Positions 1,183 through 21,825 of a stretch of DNA of 64,000 nucleotides are shown piece by piece. Below the pieces are notes generated by a model. It was given only the letters and a program-made list of their open reading frames with translations. It was not told the origin of the DNA and ran no database searches. Within the stretch, counting starts at the first letter, position 1. Each line of letters begins with the position of its first letter. This stretch comes from Aliarcobacter sp. (GTDB lineage: Bacteria > Campylobacterota > Campylobacteria > Campylobacterales > Arcobacteraceae). The stretch is from NCBI GenBank assembly GCA_028689025.1, contig JAQTXA010000001.1:248001-312000 (forward strand), given 5' to 3'. The position numbers and the translations under genes were made by a program.

Positions 1183-2337
1183 ATGTCAAAAAAATTATCA
1201 ATTATAATGATTATATTTATTGTTTTTTATATCTATACTAAAAATAAAGTTTTTAATGAAAGAACTTTAATAATAGGTTCATCACTTCCTATAACAGGGA
1301 TTATAAAATCTTGGGGTGAATCTGTATCAAATGGTGTAAATGCTTACTTTAATTATGCGAATGATAATAATTTAATATCTAATAAAAAGTTAAAATTCTT
1401 AGTTTATGATGATAAATATGAACCTGAATTAACATTTGAAAATACTAAAAAATTAATTCTTGAAGATAAAGTTTTTGCTCTTTTTGGTTTTGTGGGAACT
1501 CCTACTGTAAAAAGAATTTTACCCTTTTTATATGATGAAAATGTTCCATTCTTTTCAGCATTTTCAGGAGCATCTTTTTTAAGAAACAATAAAAATGAAA
1601 ACTTCATAAATTTTAGAAGTTCATATTCTCAAGAGATTGAAGATTTAATTAATTATCTAGATGTAGAAAAAAAACTAAATAAGATTGCTGTTTTTTATCA
1701 AAATGATGATTATGGAGAAGAAGGATATATTTCACTTGTACATCTTTTAAAAACAAGGAATTTAAAACTTGTAGCTGAAGGTTCATATAAAAGAAATACT
1801 TTATCTATAAATCATGCTTTTAATGAGATAAAAGATGCTAAACCAGAAGTTATTTTTATTATTGGGGCATATAAAACAAACTCTTTATTTATAAAAAGAG
1901 CCAAAGAAAATGAAAATCTAAAAGATGTAATATTTTGTAATATCTCTTTTGGAGATGCGAATTCAATGGTAAAAGAGCTGGAAGCTTTAGGTTCAAACAG
2001 TGAGAATCTAATTTTTTCACAAGTAGTTCCAAGTTATTTAGATAGAAATATTCCTGCTGTTAAAGAGTATCAAGATGTTATGATTAAATATTTTCCAAAG
2101 GAATCTTTTGGATTTTTATCCCTTGAAGCTTTTTTATCTTCAAAAATTTTAGTAAATGCAATTTCTAGAATTAAAGGTGAAATCACAAGAGAAAAACTAA
2201 TTGAAAATATAATCTCAACACCAAATGATTTATTAGGTGGAATTCCATTGGAGTATAAAAACTCTCAGCTTCTAAATAAAATTTTTCTTTTTGAATATAA
2301 AAATAATCAATTTGTAGAGATAATAAATGAAAAATAG
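1183..2337 (+). CDS. Periplasmic ligand-binding protein (Leu/Ile/Val-binding type), probable sensor partner
   Basis: This 384-residue protein has an N-terminal hydrophobic segment (residues 5-19) acting as signal or anchor, with no lipobox. It then shows the Peripla_BP_6 fold: the opening IIGSSLPITGIIKSWGESV, the central AVFYQNDDYGEEG and a C-terminal hinge region. The family binds amino acids or small amides in the periplasm. No permease or ATPase is adjacent. Instead the gene overlaps a membrane histidine kinase by 11 bases, so it more likely presents ligand to that kinase than feeds a transporter. The start has no clear Shine-Dalgarno. The ligand cannot be read from sequence. Confidence 0.8.
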   Translation: MSKKLSIIMIIFIVFYIYTKNKVFNERTLIIGSSLPITGIIKSWGESVSNGVNAYFNYANDNNLISNKKLKFLVYDDKYEPELTFENTKKLILEDKVFALFGFVGTPTVKRILPFLYDENVPFFSAFSGASFLRNNKNENFINFRSSYSQEIEDLINYLDVEKKLNKIAVFYQNDDYGEEGYISLVHLLKTRNLKLVAEGSYKRNTLSINHAFNEIKDAKPEVIFIIGAYKTNSLFIKRAKENENLKDVIFCNISFGDANSMVKELEALGSNSENLIFSQVVPSYLDRNIPAVKEYQDVMIKYFPKESFGFLSLEAFLSSKILVNAISRIKGEITREKLIENIISTPNDLLGGIPLEYKNSQLLNKIFLFEYKNNQFVEIINEK

Positions 2338-3919
2338 ATTTAACTCATTATTATCATATTTTGATAATTTAAACTTCAATTATAAAACATCATTTTTAGT
2401 TTTCATAATTGCAGGTGGAATGACTTGTATTATTATCCTATCTCAAATATCTATTTTTGCAATGAAACATGATTTTGATATTCTGTTTGATAAAAGAACA
2501 AAGAGTTTGATGCAACTTGAACAGATAAAAGATTCATACAAAGTAAACATCCAAGATACTATGTTCGATTTTGAGAAAAAACAGATTACTTATTCTCAAA
2601 CAGTTGAAGTTTTACAATTAGCAAAAGAGATTATAGATAAAAACTGGTCTTTATATAAAGAACAAATTGCCTTACAAAATAAAGAGTTTTTAACAACTTT
2701 TATTGAAAATTTTATTATAAATGAAGAGGATTATAATGAGAATAAAGATTTAAAAAACTCAATTATGCAAAATATCAATAAAAAAAGAGAATCAATAAAA
2801 AAAGAGATAGATAACATTAAATTAGTAAATACAGATACCTATTTTATTGGTGTAAATTTTGAAATAAATGCTATTTCAATCTATCTTACAAGTTTAATAA
2901 ACTATGATTTATCCCTCGCAATTAATGAAAAAAGAAATACTGATAAAATTTTCAATACTATTATCATTTTTTCTATAATCTCTATTTTCATAGTATTTCT
3001 ATTTTCTGTTATTTTGTCTTTATTAATTATCAATAATTTTAAAAAACTACACAACTCTCTAGAGCAAAAAGTAAAAGAAAAAACAAAAGAACTTCAAGAG
3101 TTAAACAACTATCTTGAGATAAAAATTTCAAAGGAAGTTTCTCAAAATAGGAAAAAAGATATTATCATGTTCCAACAAGCAAGATTTGCTAGTCTTGGAG
3201 AGATGTTAAATAACATCGCTCACCAATGGAGACAACCCCTTGGTGCAATTACTATGATTATTCAAAGCTTTCAAACTAAGATGTTTTTAAACAAATTAAC
3301 CCCAGAATTTGTAGAAGAAAAGGTAAATGATGCCCTACTTTTAGCAAAAAATATGTCAAATACCCTTGATGATTTTAAGAATTTCTTTTCACCAAATAAA
3401 ATAAAAAGTGAATTTAGTATAAAAAATTGTATAGAACACTCTATTGAATTATCAAAATATTTATTACTTCAAGAGAATATTGAAGTTAAATTAACAATTA
3501 GAAAAGATGTAATTATAAATAGTTATTATAATGAATTATCCCATGTATTTTTAAACATAATTTCAAATTCAAAAGATGCTTTATGTTCTAATGTTGACAA
3601 AAATGATAGAATAATTAAAATACTTGTAAATAAATTCCAAAATCATCTTGTTGTAAATATAGTTGATAATGGGGGAGGAATTCCACAAGATATTTTACCA
3701 AAGATTTTCGAGCCATATTACACTACAAAATACAAAAGTGCAGGAACGGGAATTGGGCTTTATATGTCAAAACAGATAATTGAAAAACATATAAATGGTG
3801 AAATATCTTGTAAAAATATTGTCCATAAAATGAAAAATGACAAGATTTTCAATTGTTCATTATTTATAATAAAAATACCTTTACAAAATGAAAATAGTGA
3901 GAATAAAAATGACAAATAA
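2327..3919 (+). CDS. Membrane sensor histidine kinase
   Basis: 530 residues. One transmembrane segment lies near residues 21-43 and a second near 207-233, bracketing a mostly helical periplasmic domain of about 160 residues. A coiled coil follows, then the H-box EMLNNIAHQWRQPLGAI (His near 295), the N-box NIISNSKDAL, and ATP-lid motifs DNGGGIP and GTGIGLYMSKQII. The HQWRQPL H-box is characteristic of a kinase class abundant in Arcobacter relatives. It overlaps both the upstream binding protein and the downstream regulator, so the three should be made together. The signal probably reaches it through the binding protein. Confidence 0.9.
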   Translation: MKNRFNSLLSYFDNLNFNYKTSFLVFIIAGGMTCIIILSQISIFAMKHDFDILFDKRTKSLMQLEQIKDSYKVNIQDTMFDFEKKQITYSQTVEVLQLAKEIIDKNWSLYKEQIALQNKEFLTTFIENFIINEEDYNENKDLKNSIMQNINKKRESIKKEIDNIKLVNTDTYFIGVNFEINAISIYLTSLINYDLSLAINEKRNTDKIFNTIIIFSIISIFIVFLFSVILSLLIINNFKKLHNSLEQKVKEKTKELQELNNYLEIKISKEVSQNRKKDIIMFQQARFASLGEMLNNIAHQWRQPLGAITMIIQSFQTKMFLNKLTPEFVEEKVNDALLLAKNMSNTLDDFKNFFSPNKIKSEFSIKNCIEHSIELSKYLLLQENIEVKLTIRKDVIINSYYNELSHVFLNIISNSKDALCSNVDKNDRIIKILVNKFQNHLVVNIVDNGGGIPQDILPKIFEPYYTTKYKSAGTGIGLYMSKQIIEKHINGEISCKNIVHKMKNDKIFNCSLFIIKIPLQNENSENKNDK

Positions 3920-4571
3920 AGATTTAACCATACTGCAAAATTTCAATGTTTTATATCTTGAAGATGATGAAGATTTATTAAAACATACAAAAGATATTTT
4001 AGTAGATTTCGTAAATAATATTTATGCGGTTAAAACTTCAAAAGAGGCCATGGATATTTTATTACATAAAAAAATTGATGTGATTATTTGTGATATTTTA
4101 CTAAAAGATGAAAATGGAATTGATTTTTTAAAACATATAAAAAACAAAAATATCAATACTCCAATAATTTTAACAACTGCCCACACCGACACACAATATC
4201 TACTTGATGCAATAAAATTAAAAGTAGAAAACTATATTGTAAAACCTATAGATGTAAAAGAGTTATTAAATAATTTGCATGATATTTTACTTCCAATAGT
4301 ACAAAAAAAAGAGATACAAAAAAACAATAATGTTATAAAAACTATCTCTGCCATAACAGATGGAAAACAAGTTGCAATTATAAAATATATAATAAATAAT
4401 CTAGATAATGAAAACCTTTTTTCAGCATCATATACAGATATTATGGATGAATTTACTATTTCAAAACCAACACTTATAAAACTTTTTAAAGAGTTAGCAG
4501 AAAAAAATATTTTAGTAAAAATTCAACATAAAACTTATAGATTTAATGAACAAGCTTTAGAGAGTTTGTAA
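3909..4571 (+). CDS. Response regulator with C-terminal winged-helix-like domain
   Basis: The receiver domain (about residues 5-125) has the acidic pair in LYLEDDEDLL, phospho-acceptor Asp in VIICDILLKDENG, Thr in LTTAHTD and Lys in YIVKPID. The C-terminal 80 residues contain FTISKPTLIKLFKELAEKNILVK, which reads as a small helix-turn-helix. The start at 3909 is preferred over an in-frame ATG 21 bases upstream because a weak GTGAG sits before it; either start overlaps the kinase gene. It is the probable output of the upstream kinase, likely a DNA-binding regulator. Target genes are unknown. Confidence 0.85.
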   Translation: MTNKDLTILQNFNVLYLEDDEDLLKHTKDILVDFVNNIYAVKTSKEAMDILLHKKIDVIICDILLKDENGIDFLKHIKNKNINTPIILTTAHTDTQYLLDAIKLKVENYIVKPIDVKELLNNLHDILLPIVQKKEIQKNNNVIKTISAITDGKQVAIIKYIINNLDNENLFSASYTDIMDEFTISKPTLIKLFKELAEKNILVKIQHKTYRFNEQALESL

Positions 4572-6889: not shown

Positions 6890-7118
6890 GGGGAATAAAC
6901 CTCTAATAGTTTTTTGTTCTATTGTAGAGATAAAGTGAGACTTAGTCATCTTTATGTCAAACCATAACCTATGGTCTTGAACTAATTTAATGAATCTTAA
7001 TATATCATTTATAAACTAATGCTTAAATAGTAAAATATTTTTTACTACTAAACTTCTTTTTAATGAAACCTAAGTATAATCTCCATAAAAAAGTTGCAAT
7101 ATTGCAAGGATATATTTT

Positions 7119-8156
7119 ATGAATAATGAATATAAACTAACAAAATTCGTTCAAGCTGCTGGTTGAGCTGCAAAAATGGGTCCGGGTGATCTCAAACAAA
7201 CTATTTGCAGTTTAACGCCAAATGATGAAAGAATTTTAGTAGGTTTTGATACAAGTGAAGATGCTAGTGTTTATCTAATAAATGAAACACAAGCAATAGT
7301 GCAAACACTTGATTTTATTACACCAGTTGTTGATGATCCATATATTTATGGACAAATTGCTGCTGCAAATGCATTAAGTGATGTGTTTGCTATGGGAGCT
7401 GATGTTAAAACAGCTATGAATATAGTAGGTTTTGATAAAAAGAATATCTCAAAAGAGGCTTTAGGTCTTATTTTAGAAGGTGGAAATGAGAAAATCAAAG
7501 AGTGTGGTGGTGTTCTTTTAGGTGGACACACTATTGAATCTCCTGAAATGTATTATGGATTATCAGTTACAGGAATGATTCATCCAGATAAAATAATCAG
7601 AAACAACACTCCACAAATTGGTCATGTTTTAGTTTTAACAAAACCTTTAGGAATGGGAATTTTATCAACAGCTATAAAAAGAGATTTATTGCCTTTAAAT
7701 ATCATGAAAGATTGCGCAAAAATAATGGCAAGTTTAAACTACTTGCCATCAAAAATAATGAGAAGATATGAAGTAAGTTCTTGTACAGATATTACAGGAT
7801 TTGGGCTTATGGGACATGCTTTAGAGTGTACAAATGAATTAGTTACTTTTAGTATAAATTGTAATTCTGTGCCAATTGTTTTTGAAGCAATAGATTTAGC
7901 AAATGATGATGTGATTCCAGGTGGAACAAAAAGAAATATGAAATATGTAGAAGATAAAATCACTTATATGAATAATCTGCCTACACACTGTAAAGCCTTA
8001 CTTTGTGATGCGCAAACTTCAGGTGGATTATTAATAGCGATGAAAGAAAAAGATGCTCTTGAATATATAAAAGAGATTGAAGAGTTGAGTTTTGGATATG
8101 CAAGTATTATAGGACATGTGATTCCAAGGGGAATTACTCCTATAATTGTACACTAA
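7119..8156 (+). CDS. selD: Selenide, water dikinase, itself a selenoprotein (in-frame UGA)
   Basis: SelD makes selenophosphate from selenide and ATP for tRNA-Sec charging. Translation from ATG at 7119 (AAGGA 8 bases upstream) reads MNNEYKLTKFVQAAG, then UGA at 7164-7166, then AAKMGPGDL. UGA falls at the catalytic Cys/Sec position of SelD, so it is read as selenocysteine (residue 16 of 345). Beginning at the Met after the UGA would lose the active site. Further motifs are LVGFDTSEDASVY, the ANALSDVFAMGA metal site and GGHTIESPE. selC, selA and selB follow about 3 kb downstream, so the machinery to decode it is present. Confidence 0.95.
7167..7211 (+). promoter_or_regulatory. Candidate bacterial SECIS hairpin in selD
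   Basis: Directly after the UGA, GCTGCAAA (7167-7174) pairs over 8 bases with TTTGCAGT (7204-7211), with one G-U. Inside it TGGGTC (7177-7182) pairs with GATCTCA (7188-7194) leaving one bulged U, around the loop CGGGT. A short apical stem with a bulged U and a G/U-rich loop just after UGA is what SelB recognises. The pairing is visible; SelB binding is inferred. Confidence 0.7.
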
Positions 8157-11066: not shown

Positions 11067-11172
11067 ATAGTAAAATATTTTTTACCATTTATTAAGTTTA
11101 AATCAATTTTCCTTTGGATAAAATTTGTGAATTAAAAAATAATATAAAGTCCCAATTAAAGGGATTTTCAAG

Positions 11173-11272
11173 TGGCGAGAAGGTGTAGGAATCGAACCTA
11201 CCACGGCGTATTACACATAAACCGTCAATCAGGGTTGAAGCCTGTGGTGCCCACCAGGTACACTAACCTCCC
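11173..11272 (-). tRNA. selC: tRNA-Sec (anticodon UCA)
   Basis: The minus strand folds as a 100-nt tRNA ending in encoded CCA. The anticodon loop is CTTCAAC with anticodon TCA on a CAGG/CCTG stem. The T arm is GTAGG TTCGATT CCTAC. A long variable arm closes with ACGG/CCGT. An 8-bp acceptor (GGGAGGTT against ACCTTCTC, one mismatch) and extended D arm match the tRNA-Sec form. It lies opposite the selA leader, 58 bases from the selA start. Confidence 0.95.
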
Positions 11273-11330
11273 ACTTTGTAAGAAGCAAATATTACATAAA
11301 ACAATTTTAAAACCATCTGAAAGGGTAAAA

Positions 11331-12677
11331 ATGATTTTACTAAAATCCATTCCAAAGGTTGATAAGTTTATCACACACAAAGCTTTTGAAGGATTATCTA
11401 CGAGTTTAATTACTAAAATTTCAAAGGAAGTTATAGGAAAATTAAGAGAAGATATACTAAATAATAAGATTCAAAACATAGATGAAAACACTCTAGTTTC
11501 TGATGTGCTAAAAGAGTATGAAACAATCATAAAACCATCATTGCAAACTTTGATAAATGCAACAGGAATTATAATTCATACAAATCTAGGAAGAAGTTTA
11601 ATAAACAAAAAAAGCCTAGAAAAAGCTATAGAAATAGCAACATCATATAACAATCTTGAATATGATTTACTTGAGGGCAAAAGAGGTGAAAGATATTCTC
11701 ACATTGTAAAAACACTTCAAAATTTAACAGGCTGTGAAGATGCAATTGTAGTAAATAATAATGCAAGTGCTGTTTTTTTGATTTTAAATACCTTTGCAAA
11801 AAATAAAGAAGTTATAGTTAGTCGTGGAGAGTTGGTTGAAATTGGAGGAAGTTTTAGAGTTCCTGAAGTCATGAACCAAAGTGGAGCAATACTTAAAGAA
11901 GTTGGAACTACAAATAAAACCCATTTAAGTGATTATGAAAACTCTATCAATGAAAATACCTCAATGCTTATGAAAGTTCATAAATCAAACTATTCAATTG
12001 AAGGATTCACAAGTGAAGTAGATTTTGAAGAGATTGTAAAAGTTGCGAAACAAAACGATGTAATTGATTACTACGATATGGGAAGTGGACATATTATTGA
12101 TTTACCTTTTAATCTATCTCAAAAAGAGCCATCTATTTTAGAAATTATGAAATATAATCCTTCACTTTTGAGTTTTTCAGGGGATAAACTTTTAGGAAGT
12201 GTGCAAGCTGGAATCATAATAGGGAAAAAAGAGTTAATTGAAAAAATCAAAAAAAATCAGCTTTTACGAATGTTAAGAGTTGATAAAATAACTCTTAGTA
12301 TCCTTGAAGACACTCTAAATTCATATTTAAAAAATGAGCTTAATGATATTCCAACATTAAAGATGCTTTTTACTTCTATTGAAACTTTAGAACAAAGAGC
12401 AAATAATCTTTTTGAAAAAGTAAAAACTCTTTGTAAATGTGAAGTTATAAAAACCCAAACTTTAATTGGTGGAGGAACAACTCCAAATAAAAAAATTCCA
12501 TCAATCGCCCTTTGTATTGAACATGATAATTACAAACCAAATCAACTAGAAAAACTTTTAAGAAAAAATAATCTAATAACAAGAATAGAAAATGAAAAAC
12601 TACTACTTGATTTTAGAACCATTCAAGAAGATGAAATGGAAAATATAGCTGATATTCTAAAAAAGGTATTTAACTAA
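11331..12677 (+). CDS. selA: L-seryl-tRNA(Sec) selenium transferase
   Basis: SelA converts Ser-tRNA-Sec to Sec-tRNA-Sec using selenophosphate and PLP. This 448-residue protein has the family core NATGIIIHTNLGRS and the PLP-lysine region LLSFSGDKLLGS. The reading frame is open through the selC region upstream, but that extension is antisense to the tRNA; the ATG at 11331, preceded by GAAAGG, is the true start. Its stop overlaps the selB start (TAATG), so the two are translationally coupled. Confidence 0.95.
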   Translation: MILLKSIPKVDKFITHKAFEGLSTSLITKISKEVIGKLREDILNNKIQNIDENTLVSDVLKEYETIIKPSLQTLINATGIIIHTNLGRSLINKKSLEKAIEIATSYNNLEYDLLEGKRGERYSHIVKTLQNLTGCEDAIVVNNNASAVFLILNTFAKNKEVIVSRGELVEIGGSFRVPEVMNQSGAILKEVGTTNKTHLSDYENSINENTSMLMKVHKSNYSIEGFTSEVDFEEIVKVAKQNDVIDYYDMGSGHIIDLPFNLSQKEPSILEIMKYNPSLLSFSGDKLLGSVQAGIIIGKKELIEKIKKNQLLRMLRVDKITLSILEDTLNSYLKNELNDIPTLKMLFTSIETLEQRANNLFEKVKTLCKCEVIKTQTLIGGGTTPNKKIPSIALCIEHDNYKPNQLEKLLRKNNLITRIENEKLLLDFRTIQEDEMENIADILKKVFN

Positions 12678-14509
12678 TGTCTAATATCATCATAGGAACA
12701 GCAGGTCATATTGACCATGGTAAAACAGCTTTAATCAAAGCACTTAATGGCTTTGAGGGTGATAGTACAGATGAAGAGAAACAAAGAGGAATCACTATTG
12801 ATTTATCTTTTTCAAATATGACAAAAGGTCAACAGAACATAGCTTTTATTGATGTTCCAGGACATGAGAAACTTGTAAAAAATATGATTGCAGGTGCTTT
12901 TGGATTTGATTATGTAATGCTTGTAGTTAGTGCTGCTGAGGGAATAAAACCTCAAACTGTTGAACATATAGAGATTATTAATCTTTTGGGATTAAAAGAA
13001 TTAATTGTAGTAATTACAAAAAAAGATTTGGTTAGTGAAGATGAACTGAATATAAAAAAAGAAGAGATTTTAGATTTTTTATCTAATTTTGATTTTGAAA
13101 TAAAATTTGTAAGTTGCGTATCAGTTTATGATGAAAGTTCAATAGAAAGACTAAAAAATCAGCTTTTTACAATAAATAATAGTATAAAACAAGAAGAAAA
13201 TTTCTTTAGATTTTATGTGGATAGAGTTTTTTCTCCAAAAGGAATTGGTACAGTTGTAACGGGAACTGTTTTAGGAAAAAAATGTGAACTAGATGAAAAA
13301 TTATATATTTGCCAAAGCCAAAAAGAGACAAAAATAAAAAATATCCAAGTTCATAACCAAAATGCCCTTGAATCAAATATCTCTTCTAGAGCTGCTTTAA
13401 ATCTTCAAGGTGTAAATATTTCCCACATAAATAAAGGTGATTTAATCACAAAAAAAGGACATATTAGAGGATTTGATGGAATTGATATATCTTTTAAGTG
13501 TCTAAAAAATAAGAAACTAAATCATAATCAAACCTACTCTTTATTTATTGGAGCAAAAAGAATAGAGGTAAAAGTTTTACTTTTTGATTGTATTACAAAC
13601 CTTGAAGAGGGTTTTGCAACAATAAAAGCAAGTGAGAATCTTTATACAATTTTTGGTGAAAAAATTATATTAAGAAATGGAAATGATACGATTAGTGGGG
13701 GAATTGTTTTAAATCCAATAATTGATCCTATGAAAAAAAATCAAAAAAGAAATCTTTTAGAAGCATTAGATAAAAAAGATTTTGCAAGTGCTTACAAAGA
13801 GCTACTAGAAGCTCATAAAAAAGGCTTAGGTATCATCTCTTCAACCCAAAGATTTGCCCTTTCTCATAGTGAAGCAATTGAATTTGCAAGAAATATGCAA
13901 GATGTTTTTATAGATGAAAAAGAGTTAGTTATTTACCCTCTTTCTACAAAAGAGTTTGTAAAAGATTTTATTAGAGGAATTTATACTAAAAATACTTATG
14001 CTCTACTTTCAAATGCTTCAATTGCATTACGATTAAAGTGGGCTAGTACTTTATTTATCCAAAGTGCTTTGGATGAACTAGAAGCTGAAAACTTTTTAAT
14101 AAGAGATGTTTCTTTATATAAAAATGCAAATATCAAAGAGGATTTTGCAAAAGATTTAGAAGATATTGTTTTAAATAGATTAAAACAAGAAGATATAACT
14201 CCAACTGCTCCTTATAATATTTATGATGATTTAGATATTGATAGAAAATTAGGTGATGATATTTTAAAATCATTAACTGCAAAAAAACAAGTAATGAGAC
14301 TTCAACACAATCTATTTATTCATTTTGAAAGTTTAAATAAAATAGTAAAAACTATGAGAGAAATCATCAAAGAAGATGGATATGTTAATCTTTCAAACTT
14401 TAAACAAAGATTTGATTTAAGTAGAAAATATCTGATTACTTATCTAGATTATTTAGATAATTATTCCGATATTAAAAAAGTTGAAGATAAAAGATTATTT
14501 AATCAATAA
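12677..14509 (+). CDS. selB: Selenocysteine-specific elongation factor
   Basis: SelB carries Sec-tRNA-Sec to the ribosome at UGA codons with a SECIS element. The 610-residue protein begins with a GTPase domain: G1 GHIDHGKTAL, G3 DVPGHEKLVKNM and G4 TKKD. EF-Tu-like barrel domains follow (about 175-340), then winged-helix domains in the C-terminal 250 residues that bind SECIS RNA. Start overlaps the selA stop. Length and domain order are normal. Confidence 0.95.
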   Translation: MSNIIIGTAGHIDHGKTALIKALNGFEGDSTDEEKQRGITIDLSFSNMTKGQQNIAFIDVPGHEKLVKNMIAGAFGFDYVMLVVSAAEGIKPQTVEHIEIINLLGLKELIVVITKKDLVSEDELNIKKEEILDFLSNFDFEIKFVSCVSVYDESSIERLKNQLFTINNSIKQEENFFRFYVDRVFSPKGIGTVVTGTVLGKKCELDEKLYICQSQKETKIKNIQVHNQNALESNISSRAALNLQGVNISHINKGDLITKKGHIRGFDGIDISFKCLKNKKLNHNQTYSLFIGAKRIEVKVLLFDCITNLEEGFATIKASENLYTIFGEKIILRNGNDTISGGIVLNPIIDPMKKNQKRNLLEALDKKDFASAYKELLEAHKKGLGIISSTQRFALSHSEAIEFARNMQDVFIDEKELVIYPLSTKEFVKDFIRGIYTKNTYALLSNASIALRLKWASTLFIQSALDELEAENFLIRDVSLYKNANIKEDFAKDLEDIVLNRLKQEDITPTAPYNIYDDLDIDRKLGDDILKSLTAKKQVMRLQHNLFIHFESLNKIVKTMREIIKEDGYVNLSNFKQRFDLSRKYLITYLDYLDNYSDIKKVEDKRLFNQ

Positions 14510-20121: not shown

Positions 20122-21825
20122 TTAAAACATAAAATATTTTTTAGCCATTGGAACTACTGATACATAGTTTGACTCTATTAGTTCACCATTTACTGTTACA
20201 TCATAAGTTTCTGGATCTACTTTTATATCTCCTATGAAGTCATTTAACTTCATATCTTTTTTACCTATATTTCTTGTGTTTTTAACGGCTAACATTGATT
20301 TACTGATTCCAAGTTTTACATCTAAATCATCTTCAAGAGCTACTTTTGAAGTGAATATTACACTTGTTTTCGCCGATGCCTTTCCTAGACTTCCAAACAT
20401 TTTTCTATACATACTTGGTTCTGGTGTTGGAATAGAAGCATTTGAATCACCCATCAAGGCAAGTGCTATAAATCCACCTTTGATGATAATTTCAGGTTTT
20501 ACTCCAAAAAATGCCCTATTCCATAAAACTAAATCAGCCATTTTCCCAACTTCTACACTTCCAACATATTCATCAATTCCTGAAGCGATTGCTGGATTTA
20601 TTGTATATTTTGCGATATATCTTTTGATTCTATTGTTATCACTTTTTTCATCATCACATTCTAATATTCCCCGCTGTTGTTTCATAGAGTCTGCAACTTG
20701 CCATGTTCGTATTAATACTTCTCCAACTCTTCCCATTGCTTGTGAATCTGAACTTGTGATTGAAATTGCACCCATATCGTGAAGTACATCTTCAGCTGCA
20801 ATTGTTTTTCCTCTGATTCTACTTTCAGCAAAACTTACATCTTCTGGAATTTTTGGACTTAAATGGTGACAAACCATAAGCATATCAAGGTGTTCTTCTA
20901 TTGTATTTTTTGTGTATGGTAATGTGGGATTCGTACTTGATGGAAGTACATTTGCCATACCTGCTACTTTTATAATATCAGGGGCATGCCCACCACCAGC
21001 TCCTTCACTGTGGAAAGTGTGAATTGTTCTGTCTTTAAAAGAGCCAACTGTAGTTTCCACAAATCCAGATTCATTAAGTGTATCTGTATGAATTGCAACT
21101 TGTACATCATACTTTTCTGCTACACTTAAACAAGTATCTATAGCATTTGGAGTACTTCCCCAATCCTCGTGGAGTTTTAGCCCCATTGCTCCTGCTTTTA
21201 TCTGAACTTCTAAAGCCTCTTTTGATGAGCTATTCCCTTTTCCCATAAATCCAAAGTTTAAAGGTAAATCATCCACACTTTGAATCATTTTTGCTATGTT
21301 CCAAGCCCCAGGTGTACAAGTTGTAGCATTTGTTCCTGTGTTTGGTCCTGTTCCTCCACCAATCATGGTAGTTACTCCACTTGTTAGTGCTTCATCAATT
21401 TGACCAGGACTTATAAAGTGAATGTGAGTGTCAATTCCACCTGCTGTAATGATTTTCCCCTCAGCTGAAAGTATTTCAGTATTTGCTCCAATTTCTAAGC
21501 CATGTGTTATTCCATCACATAGATTTGGATTTCCTGATTTTCCAATGGCAACTATAATTCCATCTTTGATTCCAATATCAGCTTTGTAAATACCTGTGTA
21601 GTCAATGATTATTGCATTTGTGATAATCAAGTCAGCCACTTCAACAGCAGTTGGACTTTGAGCCATTCCATCACGGATAGTTTTTCCACCACCAAATTTA
21701 CTCTCTTCACCATAAGTTGTATAATCTTTTTCAATTTTTGCGATTAATGAAGTATCGGCAAGTCTAAATCTATCACCAACAGTTGGTCCATACATTGAAG
21801 CATATTTTTCTTTTGACATCTTCAT
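20122..21825 (-). CDS. ureC: Urease alpha (catalytic) subunit
   Basis: Urease hydrolyses urea to ammonia and carbamate. The 567-residue protein has all nickel-site elements: HIHFISPGQ, the carbamylated lysine in [37 protein letters not shown] and the flap [19 protein letters not shown] lies 6 bases before the ATG at 21825, one base after the ureAB stop (TAAGATG), so expression is coupled. Length is normal. Confidence 0.98.

Follow-up and report, generated by a model that had tools for sequence, protein, structure and literature searches.

The SECIS element of Escherichia coli fdhF is read by SelB and carries an essential loop G, and E. coli SelD itself has Cys. A long lower stem is no defining feature of the minimal bSECIS. 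For Epsilonproteobacteria, Cravedi et al. (2015, PMC4607533) described SelD with selenocysteine (Sec) and a common SECIS hairpin with an invariant G, and pointed out that SelD is a selenoprotein as well as part of the machinery. Sec is encoded by 19% of the detected prokaryotic SelD genes (Mariotti et al. 2015, PMC4561486). Zhang et al. (2006, PMC1794560) count SelD among the families in which Sec has been converted to Cys.

We analysed a 64,000-nucleotide stretch of an Aliarcobacter sp. contig, hereafter the window. Its selD resembles the epsilonproteobacterial Sec-type genes (PMC4607533) in having a UGA at the catalytic position, an apical hairpin a few nucleotides downstream whose loop G is invariant, a complete selABC set and a reading frame of the kind commonly shortened by annotation. 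There was no essential difference from these genes, to which another orthologue from an Aliarcobacter-like genome is added. The core finding, a Sec-type SelD with this SECIS, is already known and is a common arrangement in this bacterial class; the retention of the hairpin in Cys-type selD and a palindrome shared by sel and fdh genes may be new.

The selD reading frame and its catalytic codon

The following features were located at the gene:

7106–7110, + strand: ribosome-binding site AAGGA, 8 nt before the ATG (sequence read directly)
7119–8156, + strand: selD, 345 aa, Sec at residue 16 (TIGR00476 with the TGA read as a residue; AIRS Pfam domains)
7164–7166, + strand: in-frame TGA, Sec codon at the catalytic position (alignment to the catalytic Cys of 2yye and 3u0o; orthologue codons)
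7176–8156, + strand: shortened selD ORF, 326 aa, without the catalytic residue (standard ORF scan; ATG 7176 after the TGA)

The original prediction had proposed a start at an ATG led by AAGGA and a TGA as codon 16, at the catalytic position before AAKMGPGDL. The AAGGA (7106–7110) and the ATG (7119) were read in the sequence as described, and the interval given, which stopped at 7211, fell short of the gene, which extends to 8156. When read through the TGA, the frame 7119–8156 matched TIGR00476 (SelD) with 353.7 bits (curated cut-off 125 bits) over positions 1–310 of the 311 in the model, and both AIRS domains, N-terminal (PF00586) and C-terminal (PF02769), were present. The frame is full-length SelD, and the protein is predicted to synthesize selenophosphate. 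A whole-genome search returned one selD copy over the cut-off, with one TGA inside. A promoter scan around selD performed no better than chance level.

The TGA at 7164–7166 is followed by GCT GCA AAA ATG GGT CCG GGT GAT CTC, which encodes AAKMGPGDL. Residue 16 aligned with the catalytic Cys of solved SelD proteins (GCAAKVGPGDL in 2yye, GCGCK in 3u0o), as the predicted catalytic position implied, and the conserved Lys of the N-terminal loop follows the catalytic residue in GUAAK here as it does in GCAAK and GCGCK. Structures 2yye and 2zod are presumably of Aquifex aeolicus SelD, natively a Sec protein. That protein has GCAAKVGPGDL in the solved construct where GUAAKMGPGDL stands here, and it is distant in sequence (203 bits over 335 residues).

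Alignment with Cys- and Sec-type SelD had been suggested as a check, and it placed TGA at this site in 100 of 131 orthologous stretches; TGT or TGC was found in 28, TTA in two and an unrelated codon in one. The stretches came from genome-wide searches and include a few records fetched twice: both TTA cases are one assembly, and the unrelated codon belongs to a degenerate gene. All the closest, Aliarcobacter-like relatives of the window have TGA. On a 74-row SelD protein tree computed with the site masked, at least seven Sec/Cys changes were needed. A single clade of Cys-type SelD was rejected on this tree.

Read as a true stop, the TGA would make selD a pseudogene or truncated gene of which the 326-aa ORF from ATG 7176 is left. 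This ORF is indeed the sole selD ORF in a standard scan, just as it had been anticipated that gene callers would cut the gene short. Decay is nevertheless scarcely credible. Many genera share the TGA, which was seen in 100 orthologous stretches; the 15 preceding codons show conservation at the protein level, and the remaining frame is intact. The shortened product would also be missing the catalytic residue, and the genome has no other SelD. The residues N-terminal of the TGA that are kept among orthologues (MNNEYKLTKFVQAAG) show that translation starts upstream of it.

Some unusual cases were seen among the orthologues. An Arcobacter sp. BM102 assembly (G226; L050:8001-9032 and L080) has TTA (Leu) at the catalytic site with the hairpin intact, and its genome also has SelB, tRNA-Sec and a UGA-containing fdhA; the TTA is either a one-base assembly error or the mark of an inactive SelD. 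In genome G334 (L184, L185), two selD copies of the Sec type lie about 41 kb from each other, and one groups with the SelD of another family. In G244 (L186), where no SelB match exceeded the cut-off, the N-terminal catalytic segment of a SelD-like gene is replaced by unrelated residues; this gene is possibly a relic or a repurposed protein.

The SECIS hairpin

The following RNA features were considered downstream of the TGA:

7178–7192, + strand: SECIS apical hairpin, stem 7178–7183 with 7187–7192, loop G 7184 (covariation, RNAalifold)
7167–7174, + strand: 5' arm of the originally predicted 8-bp outer stem, GCUGCAAA; present, not conserved (folding, orthologue rows)
7204–7211, + strand: 3' arm of the same stem, UUUGCAGU; not conserved (folding, orthologue rows)

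Loop G 7184 was invariant in all 79 distinct Sec rows, and pairs 7179–7191, 7180–7190, 7181–7189 and 7182–7188 formed in 95–100% of them. Compensatory changes were seen at two core pairs: pair 17–27 occurred as GU, GC, CG and AU, and pair 18–26 as UA and CG. Across 43 diverse distinct Sec rows, 90.7% of the cells of the 6-pair helix were paired, compared with 79.7% in shuffles (0/500), and its covariation score was 0.448, compared with 0.225 in shuffles and 0.03–0.19 in slid controls. RNAalifold, run unaided, gave the same helix as 7178–7192. In this genome the innermost pair of the stem, which has 5–6 bp, is a C/U mismatch. The strong covariation points to the apical hairpin 7178–7192 as the conserved SECIS.

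Of the two structures originally predicted after the TGA, the apical hairpin was supported, whereas the 8-bp stem is present in this sequence but unconserved in orthologues. Folding the single RNA sequence, a check put forward with the prediction, was uninformative, as by energy alone the 8-bp stem was unexceptional (z −1.4; 18 of 200 shuffles as good). Its pair 1 forms in 51 of 79 rows and its pair 2 in 27 of 79; with pairs broken in many orthologues, it is no conserved part of the SECIS. The element is like that of E. coli fdhF in its apical stem-loop downstream of the UGA and its loop G, and differs in that neither the outer stem nor the 5'-side bulged U is conserved here. No SECIS hit in selD was returned by Rfam at gathering thresholds, at which tRNA-Sec was found.

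The amino acids encoded over the stem vary along with it (GPGDL, APGEL, DPSGL, GLEDL), a pattern suggesting that the SelD protein is shaped by the constraint on its RNA.

Selenocysteine machinery and proposed pathway

The machinery genes were all found within 7.5 kb of selD:

11177–11272, − strand: tRNA-Sec, anticodon TCA (ARAGORN; Rfam RF01852, 48.3 bits, gathering threshold 47)
11331–12677, + strand: selA (TIGR00474, 574.4 bits, match from residue 57 of the long ORF)
12677–14509, + strand: selB (TIGR00475, 284.5 bits)

The longest selA ORF, from GTG 11172, would run antisense through tRNA-Sec (11172–11331); this GTG is probably a false start and ATG 11331 the true one. Two kilobases outside the window, fdhA has an in-frame TGA, with the UGA followed by a hairpin (UUGCC-GGUGU-GGCAA) of a design like that in selD. 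A SECIS model trained on selD found only selD in its own genome at E < 0.4 and missed the fdhA hairpin. It is therefore a selD-specific profile rather than a general SECIS detector and cannot be used to count selenoproteins. MnmH was absent from 37 genomes except for one sub-threshold fragment, which makes Sec the likely use of selenophosphate. No member of the SelW family was found. Elsewhere in the window, 21394–21678 (+ strand) matched the Rfam family 5_ureB_sRNA with 94 bits.

The UGA might also be read by suppression independent of a SECIS, with Trp or Cys, for example, being inserted. PMC3834832 cites read-through of this kind in E. coli under some conditions. For this selD it is very improbable in view of the hairpin covariation with its invariant loop G and of the complete Sec machinery adjoining the gene; moreover, among the genomes checked, those without SelD over the cut-off (G303, G305, G316) were also without SelB over its cut-off. 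We conclude that selD here is almost certainly a selenoprotein gene whose UGA is read as Sec by way of the apical hairpin. The proposal that SelD is itself a selenoprotein is borne out by the orthologue codons, the covariation, the Sec machinery in the window, the neighbouring UGA-containing fdhA and published work.

Following what is established for the E. coli pathway, translation of the selD mRNA would begin at ATG 7119. At the UGA (7164), SelB with GTP and Sec-tRNA-Sec would bind the apical hairpin (7178–7192), and Sec would be inserted in place of termination by RF2. The product would be a selenide, water dikinase of 345 residues with Sec16 as its catalytic nucleophile. Relatives with Cys-type SelD show that the enzyme can do without Sec. 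Selenophosphate from SelD would feed SelA, and the resulting Sec-tRNA-Sec would serve both FdhA, encoded nearby, and SelD; in this loop, likewise deduced from pathway knowledge, SelD would supply the Sec for its own synthesis.

Palindromic sites at the sel and fdh loci

The palindrome GTAAAA-N4-TTTTAC occurs at five sites in the window (strandless features):

1046–1065: between the divergent fdh operon (off the window) and the two-component genes for a periplasmic binding protein (SBP), a histidine kinase and a response regulator (1183–4571)
1505–1524: inside the SBP gene
7028–7047: selD promoter region, putative operator, perfect (TAGTAAAA-TATT-TTTTACTA)
11068–11087: upstream of tRNA-Sec/selA
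11323–11342: centred on the selA start codon

Exact matches lie at 1048, 1507, 7030, 11070 and 11325, compared with one match in 800 kb elsewhere in the same genome; permuted palindromes, with GTAAAA-N4-TTTTAC itself included, averaged 0.2 in the window. The top three genome-wide matches to the selD 18-mer were three of these five sites. The palindrome, with at most one mismatch, lies upstream of selD in 28 of 30 loci of relatives, and a site is centred on the selA ATG in the same register in 15 of the 20 such loci with selA. At the selA ATG, conservation may be partly due to the ribosome-binding site and Leu codons.

These patterns suggest that the palindrome marks a sel-fdh regulon, in which selD would probably share its transcription with selA and fdh through the common putative operator. 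The response regulator encoded between fdh and selD (3888–4571) has a RepL-like C-terminal domain, and the genes for it, the kinase and the binding protein hold their place in many relatives. Because of this positional conservation, the regulator is a natural candidate for acting at the palindrome.

Hairpin retention in genomes with Cys-type SelD

The hairpin was intact at its four core pairs and loop G in 37 of 46 Cys-type selD loci, some of which are duplicates of one genome. We considered a second role of the hairpin, such as feedback on selD translation by bound SelB, which would add to Sec insertion and not replace it. A SECIS-like element in the E. coli selAB leader, described by Thanbichler and Bock in 2002, reportedly mediates such SelB-bound feedback. 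The idea is tentative.

In its favour, the hairpin is kept in most SelB-bearing genomes with Cys-type SelD. SelB was retained in all such genomes checked in the window's family and in all 16 genomes of a Cys-type group from the same order (f20/g31), which also have a UGA-containing fdhA. The hairpin was absent or broken in five Cys-type genomes without SelB over the cut-off, two of which (G050, G190) are assemblies only 82–84% complete. On the other hand, two Aliarcobacter Cys-type species (L064, L069) as well as G137 and G209 have kept SelB and lost the hairpin.

In the 16 genomes of f20/g31, synonymous diversity was 0.108 at selD codons 17–27 (0.519 expected, P < 2e-5) and 0.133 at codons 2–15 (0.471 expected, P < 2e-5), with the expectation taken from codons 45 onward; the test resamples codons as if they were independent. 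The 5' ends of selB, the single control gene, showed no drop in the same genomes (0.38–0.46). The constraint stops at codon 28, and rarely used codons are kept without exception (CCG 15%, CTC 14%, GTC 16%), pointing to selection on the selD 5' end of this group at the level of the nucleic acid. Codons 2–27 of these genes (L138-L142, L199-L209) are near-invariant, with the SECIS-like hairpin included, and a second potential hairpin (UUGAC/GUCAA) lies before the Cys codon. ARAGORN, run on four of the 16 genomes, found no tRNA-Sec beside selA in any of them.

Against a second role, the constraint on codons 21–25 was not significant in the window's own Sec group (P 0.21) and was absent from the full set of 10 Aliarcobacter Cys-type species (P 0.42). 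It reached significance in the latter only without the two species that have lost the hairpin, a post hoc result that we do not count as support. SECIS remnants persisting after Sec-to-Cys conversion are also on record, and Zhang et al. (2006, PMC1794560) interpreted them as relics. The Cys-type hairpins are like these remnants, although one clade here, f20/g31, is constrained more than expected of a relic. In E. coli, 75Se was weakly incorporated at the UGC of a SECIS construct (PMC3834832), which makes partial Sec insertion a second possibility for the Cys-type hairpins. That the selD 5' end is a regulatory RNA as well, selected after the change from UGA to Cys while SelB was kept, is conceivable but on balance unlikely.

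Implications

At its core, the work puts right the annotation of a single gene and bears out a selenium pathway that feeds itself, as previously reported for this class. If the selD 5' end does have a regulatory role, SelB may sense or limit selD translation, or may insert some Sec at UGU or UGC.
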